Shown: positions 19,062 to 22,752 of the stretch, one piece after another | Layout: each line of letters starts with the position of its first letter | How positions within the stretch are numbered: position 1 is the stretch's first letter | Source of the DNA: a virus | Strand: one strand, 5' to 3' | Length of the DNA stretch: 36,851 nt | Virus record (IMG/VR): IMGVR_UViG_3300007760_000948 | Coordinates: 1-36,851 of that record | The notes under the pieces: model-generated | Databases searched by the model: none | What the model was told of the DNA's origin: nothing | What the model saw: the letters and a program-made list of their open reading frames with translations, nothing else | Made by a program: the position numbers and the translations under genes

Positions 19062-19242
19062 GCCGTGCCTTGACAAGCCGAGCCTTGTCAAACCTTCCCC
19101 TAACGTCAAGGTTTCAAAACCTATCAAGCATTCCCGTACCGTGAAGGTCAACGGGCGGGAGGTCGAAGTTGCCTACCGATCTACCAAGCCGTCATCATCT
19201 TCATCGATGACCACACAGCAATCAGGGCAACGGGAGCAGTGA
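19054..19242 (+). CDS. Possible small basic protein, 62 aa
   Basis: ATG 19054 overlaps the end of the 83-aa gene. The product contains VKVNGREVEVAYRSTK, plausible as a beta-hairpin, then a Ser-rich tail. Its last 70 bases overlap the convergent lipoprotein gene on the minus strand, so only one of the two ends may be correct. I keep it with low confidence. Confidence 0.4.
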   Translation: MDEPCLDKPSLVKPSPNVKVSKPIKHSRTVKVNGREVEVAYRSTKPSSSSSMTTQQSGQREQ

Positions 19243-19376
19243 TCTCGGATATAGAGAACGCTCCAATGGGTTTCTTCCTCTCTAATATCGCCAGCATCCG
19301 AAACATCGGGGGTTGGTGCCATCTCAACACAAGAGAGGATCAAGAGGGTAGGGATCAAGAGTAGTGTTGTTTTCAT
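19173..19376 (-). CDS. Small lipoprotein, 67 aa
   Basis: The N-terminus MKTTLLLIPTLLILSC is a signal peptide with a lipobox (LILSC, Cys16), predicting a membrane-anchored lipoprotein. The mature part is short and acidic, with four further Cys (HCSRCPDCC) and an acidic DEDDDG end. The start overlaps the previous stop (TAATG). Small phage lipoproteins act in lysis (outer spanins) or superinfection exclusion; no other lysis gene is visible nearby, so neither can be chosen. Confidence 0.7.
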   Translation of the reverse strand: MKTTLLLIPTLLILSCVEMAPTPDVSDAGDIREEETHWSVLYIRDHCSRCPDCCVVIDEDDDGLVDR

Positions 19377-19618
19377 TATCCTGCGGCCCTTTTCCGAAGC
19401 AGTTCAAACAACTCAGGGTGATCATCGCAGATGCTTTCGCCGTTCCCTTCAGGAAGGTCATCCACTCGCCGCATTAATGCGACAGCGAAATCAACGACCC
19501 CACCCATCTCCTCGACTGTTTCGGGGGGAACGCACAAGTCCTCTACCAAACGCCGTGCAAGTAGGCGTAAATAGAGTTCTTCTCTGAGATCAATAAGCTC
19601 GCCCATCAGTTTCTTCAC
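19376..19618 (-). CDS. Small protein of unknown function, 80 aa
   Basis: GTG 19618 has AGGG nearby; ATG 19606 is an alternative four codons later. The product is acidic and helical (LIDLREELYLRLLARRLVED), with an ELFELLRKRAAG end. No family recognised. It overlaps the 56-aa gene at one end and the lipoprotein at the other, forming a three-gene minus-strand operon. Confidence 0.65.
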   Translation of the reverse strand: MKKLMGELIDLREELYLRLLARRLVEDLCVPPETVEEMGGVVDFAVALMRRVDDLPEGNGESICDDHPELFELLRKRAAG

Positions 19619-19760
19619 TTTGCCCTGATTTCTTATCCACAGGCTTACGGGGCAGGTGGTCCTTCATAAAGGGAAGAACAAGTTGCTGCCCGCCGAAATC
19701 CTCCGGGGCGTTATTCTTGGTGTCGGTCTTTTTTGTTTCAGTTTCTTCTGGCTGTGGCAT
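19590..19760 (-). CDS. Small hydrophilic protein, 56 aa
   Basis: ATG 19760 follows AGAGGTGA. The sequence is mostly charged and probably disordered (PQPEETETKKTDTKNNAPED), with a short LVLPFMKDHL motif in the middle that resembles a QLxLPF-type peptide (QQLVLPF). QLxLPF-like peptides bind sliding clamps, so this could contact the phage or host beta clamp; that is inference from one short motif. Confidence 0.55.
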   Translation of the reverse strand: MPQPEETETKKTDTKNNAPEDFGGQQLVLPFMKDHLPRKPVDKKSGQSEETDGRAY

Positions 19761-19780
19761 GTCGTCACCTCTACACAATT

Positions 19781-20440
19781 GGGGAGTCTCATAGGATACC
19801 CACCGAACCAGCCCACATAGGGCGTTTAGGGGTGTGGTTCCATAACTACCCGATAAGATTGGTTGAACCTACTTTCTCAAAAAGTTCACCATCAACCTTC
19901 TTGCGAAATCTGATGAAGGCGGGTAGAAGCATCCTCATTGTTCAGTCCTGTCATTGACAGGCCAGCAGAGGTCACGCCCGTTGCAAGAAATCTCAAAAAA
20001 GAGAGCATCAACCATCGGGATTGAGAGAAATAGCCAGCCATCGGACATTTCTCGAAGCACTTTGGGGGGGAAACCCTCGTGGGATTGGCTAAACCACCGA
20101 ACAGTGACGGCTCAGGGTTCCCTACAGCATCTTCGGATTGAGGGATCTCGGAGGGAGAGTATAGAAACCCTCTATCCTATGTTGTTCCGAGGGAGGTGGC
20201 ATTCCGAAAGGAGGCTCCCTGTTGCGATTAAACTGAAGACTCTAATTAAGTATTCAGGAAGAGACATAGGATCTGCAATCATCAACACCAGAAACCAAAG
20301 ACTTTGAACCAAAACCAAAACCGAACTTACTACTAAACCAATACCTACTATCACTACTCTTACTCTAACTAATGCTACGCCCAAACTTTTACGCTCAAAG
20401 TTCTACTTCTACGCTTAAACCAGACCTTTAGGCTCGATAT
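19781..20440 (+). ncRNA. Candidate large structured non-coding RNA
   Basis: No ORF here has an SD or protein-like composition. Perfect helices visible on the plus strand: GAACCA/TGGTTC (19805-19810 with 19835-19840); CCTGTC/GACAGG (19947-19952 with 19956-19961); GAGAAAT/ATTTCTC (20025-20031 with 20047-20053), whose loop AGCCA (20032-20036) can pair with TGGCT (20086-20090) as a pseudoknot; TCCCT/AGGGA with an inner cUUCGg tetraloop (20119-20145); AGGGAG/CTCCCT (20190-20195 with 20215-20220) capped by TCC-GAAA-GGA; and CTGAA/TTCAG (20233-20237 with 20253-20257), the last two enclosed by ATCCTATGT/ACATAGGAT (20174-20182 with 20264-20272). UUCG and GNRA loops exist only in this orientation. Large ornate RNAs such as GOLLD and ROOL occur in phages, but I cannot assign this one to either. 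Confidence 0.6.
20281..20440 (+). other. G-depleted tract with ACGC-spaced repeats
   Basis: The plus strand is rich in A, C and T, with only a dozen or so G in 160 bases (ACCAAAACCAAAACC, then CTACTATCACTACTC). Three ACGC words appear about 15-20 bases apart near 20377-20415. It would be nearly unstructured as RNA and lies at the 3' end of the candidate ncRNA. The complementary strand has a Leu/Val-rich frame that lacks a start and SD. Confidence 0.6.
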
Positions 20441-20485
20441 CCAATGACGTTCCTATTTCGGGATCTTTCCTGTGGAGGGATTCCT

Positions 20486-20909: not shown

Positions 20910-21098
20910 ATGACAGACCAAGAGCAAAAACAGCCGCCACCATCAAAAAAACCACTGCACTTTATCCGTTGCCAAGCCTCACAACGCTGTGAGGGCAATC
21001 AGGCACGGCTTGATTTCAAGAAGAAGCTCGCAAGTGGCGGCCATGCTTATCGCTACACGTGCCTCACCTGTAATAAGGCGTGGCATATCTCTTTGTGA
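20910..21098 (+). CDS. Small Cys-containing protein, 62 aa
   Basis: MTDQEQKQPPPSKKPLHFIR is followed by C-x5-C (CQASQRC) and a later CLTC, spaced like a small zinc-binding unit, and the end NKAWHISL. Zinc-ribbon function is likely but the partner is unknown. ATG 20910 follows GAGGGGATCGC. Confidence 0.65.
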   Translation: MTDQEQKQPPPSKKPLHFIRCQASQRCEGNQARLDFKKKLASGGHAYRYTCLTCNKAWHISL

Positions 21099-21101
21099 GA
21101 T

Positions 21102-21128
21102 GTGTCCGTTTCCGCCAAATTTTCGGTA
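21102..21128 (+). promoter_or_regulatory. Putative phage promoter, second subtype, before clamp-loader genes
   Basis: GTGTCCGTTT (21102-21111), 11 bases, then TCGGTA (21123-21128). It stands 24 bases upstream of ATG 21152 and would drive the two clamp-loader genes and perhaps the reductase. Confidence 0.5.
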
Positions 21129-21151
21129 TGGAAATTAGATAAGGGAGAGAC

Positions 21152-21766
21152 ATGGAGCAGCGGATCGAGACATCGCTTGTAGGAGCCTCCGTAAGCCTGT
21201 TTCACGGTCAAGGTGCTCAGGATGCGGCTATGGAAGCCGCAGGGCAATACGGGCGAATCCTCGCTGTTTTAGGGGGAGAAAAAGGGCTTCGTAAGGATGA
21301 CTCCAGAGAGATGCTTCGTCTCCACAACATGCCACCAGCTTCGGATGCTTTTGGTTCCGTGGTTCTTGGACCGATGGACTTGGCTACCTTTGAGGCTGCG
21401 GATGCCCTTCTCAAGATAATCGAAGAACCCAGCCACTACACCCGACCGTTTTTGTGGGCTTTTGATTTAGGCGAAGTTCCGAAAACGATCCGATCTCGAT
21501 GCCAAGCCGTTTGGTCTTATGGCGAGTCCTCCACCTCAGAAGAAATCGACCCAAAGCTAATCGAAGAAGCCTTGGCGGGAAACGGGACCACCATTGGGGA
21601 GTTGATGCTAAAGCACGACCCCAAAACCGTCTTGGATGCCGCCTTGGACCATCTCTCAAAACGAGAGTTCGAGCCTCGCATGTGGTTGCTCATGAAGAAT
21701 GTCCTTGGGCGTGAAAGTATCGCATCAGTATCTGCGGCATTGGCCAACGCAGGTATTGAAAAATGA
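21152..21766 (+). CDS. Clamp-loader delta'-like subunit, 204 aa
   Basis: The segment ADALLKIIEEPSHYTRPFLW with the following DLGEVPKTIRSRCQ matches the region of bacterial DNA polymerase III delta' and gamma/tau where the SRC motif contacts the neighbouring ATPase site. There is no Walker A motif, as expected for delta', and the protein is shorter than E. coli HolB (334 aa), lacking most of the N-terminal lid. It would sit in a clamp-loader pentamer that opens the beta ring. The next gene is delta-like and overlaps by 4 bases, which strongly supports the call. Start: ATG 21152 after GGGAGAGAC. Confidence 0.75.
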   Translation: MEQRIETSLVGASVSLFHGQGAQDAAMEAAGQYGRILAVLGGEKGLRKDDSREMLRLHNMPPASDAFGSVVLGPMDLATFEAADALLKIIEEPSHYTRPFLWAFDLGEVPKTIRSRCQAVWSYGESSTSEEIDPKLIEEALAGNGTTIGELMLKHDPKTVLDAALDHLSKREFEPRMWLLMKNVLGRESIASVSAALANAGIEK

Positions 21767-22752
21767 ATGTGGACGTAATCCATGGGAATTGTAGTTTTCG
21801 GATTTCCCGTCATTCGCAGAGCCTTCAGAACGAGCTTTACACACAAGGCTTCCGAATAGAGTCCGTAGACGGGAACAACAAAGGGTCCGTCTTAGATGCC
21901 TTGTCAGGCTCCGTGTTCTTTTCCGAACCATTAGCCATCATCGTAAAGCAGCCGTTGAAAGACCTTGAAGGGGTGATCGATGCGGTCGGGCGATCTGACG
22001 AGACTTTACGGTTGGTTCTGATTCAAGACAGCACGATCCCCAAGTCTTCTAAACTATTCAAGAAAGTAGTTGAAAAGACTTCTCGTGCGTATGCGTACAT
22101 CACACCAACAAAGCCGTGGGAACAAACACCTTACGCAGCAGATTTCGGAGTAAGCATCGCAAAAGCGATGGGAACACCGATTACCAAGGCTCTTTCAACA
22201 TCCTTGGTGGGTCGAGTTGGGACCGACTTGGCAACGCTTTGGTGGGAGATCAAAAAAGCCTCCATGCTGGCAGGGCTGGAAGGCTCCCCAACGATTGAAG
22301 CCACCCACGTCAAGCGAGTAATGGCCCCGATCTCGGAGGTTGGGCCAGAAGCGTTGATAGCCCCATTAGAGGCACTATCCGCTAAGAAGTTCTTGGCCGC
22401 CGCCCTCCGAGTTCAACAATATGCGGGCAAAGACCCAACCATGTGGACCTGTGCGCTTTTGTCGAAAAGGGTTCTACTTTGGTTAGCGGTTTCTCACGCC
22501 CACGAAAATAAGATTTCTTTAGATTTAGTAGCTCAACGCTTGGGAAAAAATTCTTGGTACTTGAAAAACCAAGTTCTTCCTCCCGCACGGAAATGGGGGT
22601 CGAAGGGGTGCGCTTCACTCCTAAGTGCTTTGGCAGAGGCGGAAAATTCCGTCAAGGCGGGAGCCGTCGCCCCTTTCAATAGCTTAGTGTGTCAGGTCGT
22701 AAGGGCCATCCACGAACGCAGGGGTGTCGGTAGACGCTTGATTGACCCCTGA
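21763..22752 (+). CDS. DNA polymerase III delta-like clamp-loader subunit, 329 aa
   Basis: The overall pattern matches HolA: an N-terminal domain with VFFSEPLAIIVKQP, the stretch ETLRLVLIQDSTIPKSSKLF, then the AAA+ lid-type helices and the conserved LVGRVGTDLATLWWEIKKAS followed by a C-terminal collar (EALSAKKFLAAALRVQQYAG). Length is close to E. coli delta (343 aa). Delta binds and opens the beta clamp. It follows the delta'-like gene by ATGA overlap, and a beta-clamp-like gene begins at 36102. No gamma/tau ATPase subunit is in the window, so a host subunit may complete the loader. Confidence 0.72.
   Translation: MNVDVIHGNCSFRISRHSQSLQNELYTQGFRIESVDGNNKGSVLDALSGSVFFSEPLAIIVKQPLKDLEGVIDAVGRSDETLRLVLIQDSTIPKSSKLFKKVVEKTSRAYAYITPTKPWEQTPYAADFGVSIAKAMGTPITKALSTSLVGRVGTDLATLWWEIKKASMLAGLEGSPTIEATHVKRVMAPISEVGPEALIAPLEALSAKKFLAAALRVQQYAGKDPTMWTCALLSKRVLLWLAVSHAHENKISLDLVAQRLGKNSWYLKNQVLPPARKWGSKGCASLLSALAEAENSVKAGAVAPFNSLVCQVVRAIHERRGVGRRLIDP
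22719..22751 (+). other. Inverted repeat around the end of the delta-like gene
   Basis: CAGGGGT (22719-22725) is a perfect complement of ACCCCTG (22745-22751) with a 19-base loop and no T tract. It could affect 3'-end stability between the loader genes and the reductase. Confidence 0.4.

Follow-up and report, generated by a model that had tools for sequence, protein, structure and literature searches.

To our knowledge, only a few large structured phage RNAs have been described, and what they do is poorly understood. Structured RNA also occurs upstream of phage replication genes, as in T4, where genes 32 and 43 have translational-repressor leaders that are short and adjoin the ribosome-binding site. 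A homo-oligomeric RNA cage is a mark of GOLLD and ROOL. GOLLD and ROOL are large structured phage RNAs located outside coding genes, with a poorly understood function; both are often found near tRNA islands, and GOLLD is often longer than 800 nt (PMC12286853). In phage ICP1, which has no tRNA genes, an abundant transcript of about 0.8 kb comes from an ORF-less stretch between gp139 and gp140 (PMC7567579).

Here we analyse a stretch of viral DNA which, on balance, we read as a divergent member of a conserved, uncatalogued RNA of huge phages that lies upstream of a gene for a 144-aa protein (g144) and would act together with that protein. Like GOLLD and ROOL, the g144-linked RNA is a large structured phage RNA outside coding genes, and the first-pass annotation had placed it in their company. 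That kinship was not borne out by the comparison: the RNA matches nothing in Rfam, whether searched in the window or in 11 related loci; there is no tRNA in the window or in 22 related loci (although tRNA proximity is a tendency of GOLLD rather than strictly defining); its folded part spans about 300-490 nt, shorter than is usual for GOLLD; and it has a constant protein-gene neighbour, g144. The ICP1 transcript likewise stems from an ORF-less phage stretch but maps to the lysis cluster of a Vibrio phage, and we set it apart by its description. The T4 leaders share the position upstream of replication genes, whereas the g144-linked fold is large and ends far upstream of its gene.

Gene neighbourhood of the gap

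The window (i.e., the whole stretch of DNA that was analysed, a virus record of 36.9 kb) carries many replication genes, encoding helicases, a clamp loader subunit, ribonucleotide reductase, a UvsX-like recombinase and SbcC/SbcD-like proteins. It probably represents part of a huge phage genome, since its delta-like protein has a relative in only one phage record, that of a 485-kb uncultured phage. The gap under study is bounded by a minus-strand ORF starting at 19778 on one side and by the start of g144 at 20444 on the other, with the following genes around it:

19376-19618, minus strand: 80-aa gene, retained beside the RNA in the related loci L003 and L304
19590-19778, minus strand: 62-aa ORF divergent from the RNA, weakly identified from its position and by comparison with L304 (696-842)
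20444-20878, plus strand: g144, encoding a 144-aa protein, the constant downstream neighbour of the RNA
20910-22752, plus strand: a 62-aa ORF, clamp loader delta' and the delta-like protein, downstream of g144
21152-21766, plus strand: clamp loader delta' (Pfam DNA_pol3_delta2 and synteny)
21763-22752, plus strand: delta-like protein, named from its position and similarity to relatives only

The small divergent ORFs of the window (19590-19778, minus strand) and of L304 (696-842, minus strand) contain the motifs GGQQLVLPF and KQLTLFPLEGVQLDLF, respectively, which resemble clamp-binding peptides. The window (19173-19376, minus strand) and L304 (153-503, minus strand) also encode small proteins that share an EEETHW..RD/SDHC..CC motif and appear to have a lipoprotein-type signal; these belong to the block that stays beside the RNA.

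The first-pass annotation had described the gap as having no plausible ORF and no visible tRNA, and could not place it in a known RNA class; all three statements agree with our searches. No recognisable gene was found on either strand: for the gap ORFs (19733-19957 and 19954-20307 on the plus strand, 20172-20384 on the minus strand), none of the fetched loci contained a relative at E<=0.1, whereas g144 and its 80-aa neighbour did have relatives among them. A tRNA search of the stretch found none. A search of Rfam 15, covering OLE, HEARO, group I and II introns and other families, returned no covariance-model match at gathering score, and only chance-level matches at lax thresholds. The RNA matches no catalogued family, and nothing similar is described in the open literature that we searched.

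Collection of related loci

Neither a sequence search of phage records with the stretch nor an exact 28-base search of viral contigs gave a match, and scans with the single proteins delta and g144 found no relative; an alignment of delta varied too much to serve for scanning. Related loci came from a scan with ribonucleotide reductase, which led to L003 and further loci, and from an alignment scan with the exonuclease V/Dda-like helicase, which led to 80 loci on contigs of up to 536 kb; in many of these 80, the homologous place was then found with delta and g144 profiles. As most loci were obtained through neighbouring genes, RNA contexts away from those genes may be missed. The most similar syntenic locus, L003, has the order minus-strand 80-aa gene, 820-nt gap, g144, 62-aa ORF, delta', delta and reductase, and the extent to which gap and gene order are kept varies among the other loci. 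Local alignment of the L003 gap with the window stretch scored 52, below the shuffle maximum of 53, so no sequence homology can be claimed between them.

A conserved RNA family upstream of g144

Directly upstream of g144, on the plus strand, we found a common core in 23 non-redundant related viral contigs (the largest of 536 kb), consisting of a GNRA-capped hairpin (HP1) abutting a second hairpin (HP2). Across many loci the plus strand upstream of g144 had in common a TTGAC-type box, HP1 and HP2, a bulged hairpin in which UGC and CUC are conserved, and, last, a hairpin termed F. The structured part measured about 325-490 nt in the relatives and about 300 nt in the window. When the g144-upstream regions of relatives were scanned for the HP1-HP2 motif, it was present on the plus strand in 26 of 45 (23 non-redundant) and on the minus strand in none.

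The core shows extensive compensatory change. Nine relatives were aligned manually, using N padding; both sides vary in 21 of the 23 pairs, and 95.5% of the cells are paired. Such an alignment leans towards its structure, though conserved loop motifs fix its register. Slid versions fall to 34-53% paired cells and no shuffle reaches the observed level. When HP1-HP2 was compared across 23 sequences, each of its nine pairs showed changes on both sides and 99.5% of the cells were paired, a figure biased by the choice of rows for their pairing (one base of L015 was also omitted), and the motif scan is the less biased test. Relatives with compensatory changes at the same place back the central suggestion of the first-pass annotation, a sizeable plus-strand structured RNA outside Rfam. 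Folding z-scores in the relatives were nearly equal on the two strands (mean about -2.6 on the plus and about -2.3 on the minus strand). We regard it as almost certain that the conserved RNA family is real.

The HP2 loop contains GCCRUUGAGCU, or a close variant, in subgroup I, and subgroup II (L112, L117, L123, L126, L127, L134, L135, L138, L140, L142 and L151) has AAGGAAC or a close variant; L055, L076, L096, L145, L157 and the window fall in neither. A covariance model (R1) gave one strong match, at g144, in each of three contigs (436, 536 and 402 kb) and a weaker one on the 297-kb contig of L138; R1 was built from subgroup I and also misses most of subgroup II, so that it does not test the family as a whole. 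Scanning viral contigs for a 17-base motif returned 59 stretches, only two of them strong by R1 and both on contigs already collected, and a scan for the subgroup II motif returned five contigs, all already collected. Not every g144 locus had a recognisable copy of the RNA; L107 and L128 apparently have coding sequence instead.

In L107, a transposase-like reading frame (TnpB-like by eye) occupies about 1460-2400, upstream of g144, where other phages carry the RNA. Near the clamp loader genes of L010, positions 1-480 hold tandem GGTCCAACCGGGGACAC-type DNA repeats resembling a collagen-like repeat protein. We also considered, by eye, a pseudoknot linking the HP2 loop to a downstream UAGC, and discarded it because it fails in some members.

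Many, but not all, family members have a further helix, P1, which encloses HP1 and HP2. In L013, L061, L114 and L116, the bases that directly follow HP2 pair over 10-11 bp with positions about 120-140 nt ahead of HP1, the sequence differing in each. The combined p-value for P1 over 24 relatives was 3e-8, for a geometry that we had made narrower following an initial, broader test (p=0.0035 when the window was counted in; p=0.085 for the window alone). Twelve relatives have a TTGAC-type box 119-205 nt before HP1, and the start implied by this box (36 nt on) lies within about 10 nt of the P1 5' strand in L013, L055, L061, L093, L112, L114, L116 and L117. Because these implied starts fall near the P1 5' strand, P1 probably forms the 5' end of the transcript, as judged from sequence.

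The copy in the window

The window copy was recognised by synteny, a single HP1-HP2, P1 geometry and a de novo fold, without a sequence match. Its parts, all on the plus strand, are as follows:

19901-19929, plus strand: weak promoter candidate TTGCGA-N17-TAGAAG, read from the sequence, with a predicted start at about 19936 and a distance from HP1 that agrees with the TTGAC boxes of relatives
19935-19943, plus strand: P1 5' strand UCAUUGUUC, likely the RNA 5' end, pairing with 20099-20107 (p=0.022 with the geometry taken from relatives; MFE and centroid)
19947-19961, plus strand: hairpin CCUGUC-AUU-GACAGG inside the P1 multibranch (MFE, sequence)
20025-20053, plus strand: arm closed by GAGAAAU/AUUUCUC inside the P1 multibranch (MFE)
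20065-20078, plus strand: HP1, GGGGG-GAAA-CCCUC, GNRA-capped (motif scan, covariation over 23 sequences, MFE)
20079-20097, plus strand: HP2, GUGG-GAUUGGCUAAA-CCAC, abutting HP1 (motif scan, covariation, MFE)
20099-20107, plus strand: P1 3' strand GAACAGUGA, one base past HP2 (geometry test, MFE)
20108-20230, plus strand: 3' domain, weaker than the core (MFE and comparison by eye)
20271-20443, plus strand: G-poor tail to g144, probably unstructured; 5 G in its poorest 100 nt, the lowest of the window plus strand

The RNA proper covers about 19935-20230 and is followed by the G-poor tail towards 20443. The first-pass annotation had drawn one ornate RNA from 19781 to 20440, which is too wide: 19781-19934 precedes the RNA start expected from relatives and is more likely promoter and spacer than RNA, and 20271-20443 is G-poor and not ornate. 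Several of the elements that it named are in place. Its GNRA-capped arm is HP1, and its multibranch closed by a 9-bp long-range helix (19935-19943/20099-20107) is the P1 domain, found together with HP1 and HP2 in the MFE of 19935-20230, which was computed without relatives. The cUUCGg loop is present at 20132-20135, and its hairpin is absent from that MFE; a 3' domain hairpin (UUCC-GAAA-GGAG, 20202-20213) resembles the final hairpin F of relatives by eye. The impression of many perfect helices holds for local stems of at least 6 bp (13 in the stretch vs. 7.3 in shuffles, with 7 of 200 shuffles reaching 13) but not for stems of at least 7 bp, which are not enriched, and two perfect 9-bp pairings (19790-19798/20173-20181 and 20174-20182/20264-20272) are at chance level, as many occurring in 117 of 500 shuffles. 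The plus strand does fold relatively better than the minus strand (z -0.97 vs. +0.53), but its energy is not striking, with z-scores of -0.97 for 19776-20443, -2.1 for 19776-20280 and -1.6 for 19935-20230; the folding energies are modest and say little on membership.

We consider it highly probable that the window copy belongs to the family as a divergent member. The opposing explanation, that the relatives have a structured RNA while the window stretch is an unrelated spacer that lost it, would fit the insignificant score against R1 (3.1 bits, E=0.13), the modest fold energy, L003, in which no HP1-HP2 was seen, and the promoter candidate, which is weak (8 of 12 consensus positions, below the cut-off of the scanner, which reported none). 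This explanation is improbable in view of four observations. HP1-HP2 occurs once on the window plus strand, inside the gap, as against 4 of 2000 shuffles of the stretch, and P1 is significant at the p-value listed above, both having been noticed by eye in the window before the formal tests were set. The window also has the G-poor tail, and it is syntenic with L304 (from the L235 contig), where homologues of the minus-strand 80-aa gene and of g144 flank a gap with its own HP1 (GACC-GAAA-GGUU), HP2 (AGCGG-UUUAGCCUA-CCGCU) and G-poor tail, and where the MFE includes both hairpins (z -2.05).

The tails of L118, L120 and L157 are even lower in G (2-3 per 100 nt). Such a tail could be a Rho loading site or a flexible linker; a Thr-rich peptide encoded within it was dropped by eye, since frames and stops are not conserved. 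Between tail and g144, L108, L116, L122, L121 and L106 carry short, lineage-specific repeats (AAATTAATTT, GATTCTC, AAACTTT), possibly operators or origin repeats. A search for a shared promoter motif just before g144 brought out only a ribosome-binding-site-like AGGAGG.

Association of the RNA with g144

The g144 protein had no family match in Pfam or PHROGs, and a Foldseek search of PDB and BFVD with its predicted structure (pLDDT 80.8) returned nothing at E<=0.001 (best Z 2.2 in a second look). L235, which one neighbouring protein (65%) marks as a near relative of the window, has neither g144 nor the gap next to delta'. On its contig, g144 lies about 1.4 kb past the locus end on the opposite strand, preceded by the gap and the 80-aa gene, i.e., the block of 80-aa gene, RNA and g144 is intact though apart from delta' and inverted. 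Since the block survives the loss of its link to delta', we judge it likely that RNA and g144 form one module. The RNA was not seen without g144 among these loci, which were mostly fetched via neighbouring genes.

Possible functions of the RNA

The RNA is probably non-coding, as read from its plus-strand structure and the lack of a conserved ORF. Transcription would begin at a sigma-70-like promoter, with P1 forming the RNA 5' end, and the RNA would run on into the unstructured G-poor tail. It would then work with the g144 protein, most likely as the RNA part of a putative ribonucleoprotein around phage DNA replication. A trans-acting ribonucleoprotein with g144 as its predicted partner is our tentative preference.

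A cis-acting alternative is also a serious possibility, if still short of an even chance: the RNA may be a long 5' leader of the g144 operon that sets its expression, e.g., via the g144 protein or another ligand. Its constant place and strand directly upstream of g144, even after relocation, fits a leader, as do the phage-specific short repeats between tail and g144 in several relatives and the absence of a visible intrinsic terminator between RNA and g144 in the window; in most members, however, the fold ends about 180-400 nt before the g144 start, which is unusual for a start-codon switch. We think it improbable that the locus is a replication-origin element, in which the transcript, or the repeat-bearing DNA behind it, starts phage DNA replication. 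Its position at the head of the replication genes in most relatives and the repeats before g144, differing by lineage, are suggestive of an origin, but on the L235 contig the block and the clamp loader genes are separated, the GC skew of the window takes no clear turn at the gap, and the covariation indicates selection on RNA structure, which a DNA origin does not need. Our best guess thus ranks the ribonucleoprotein before the cis-acting leader, with little between these two, and the origin element last.

Significance

The g144-linked RNA recurs across many huge-phage lineages, with a strongly covarying core and a steady gene neighbour despite relocation. We know of no large phage RNA with a role in DNA replication, and it is a rather speculative proposal that the g144-linked RNA represents a new RNA class of phages, joined with its putative partner g144 in an RNA-protein module that would serve DNA replication in huge phages. 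The covariance model is now usable for searching other phages, and g144 provides a concrete candidate partner to test, which GOLLD and ROOL lack.
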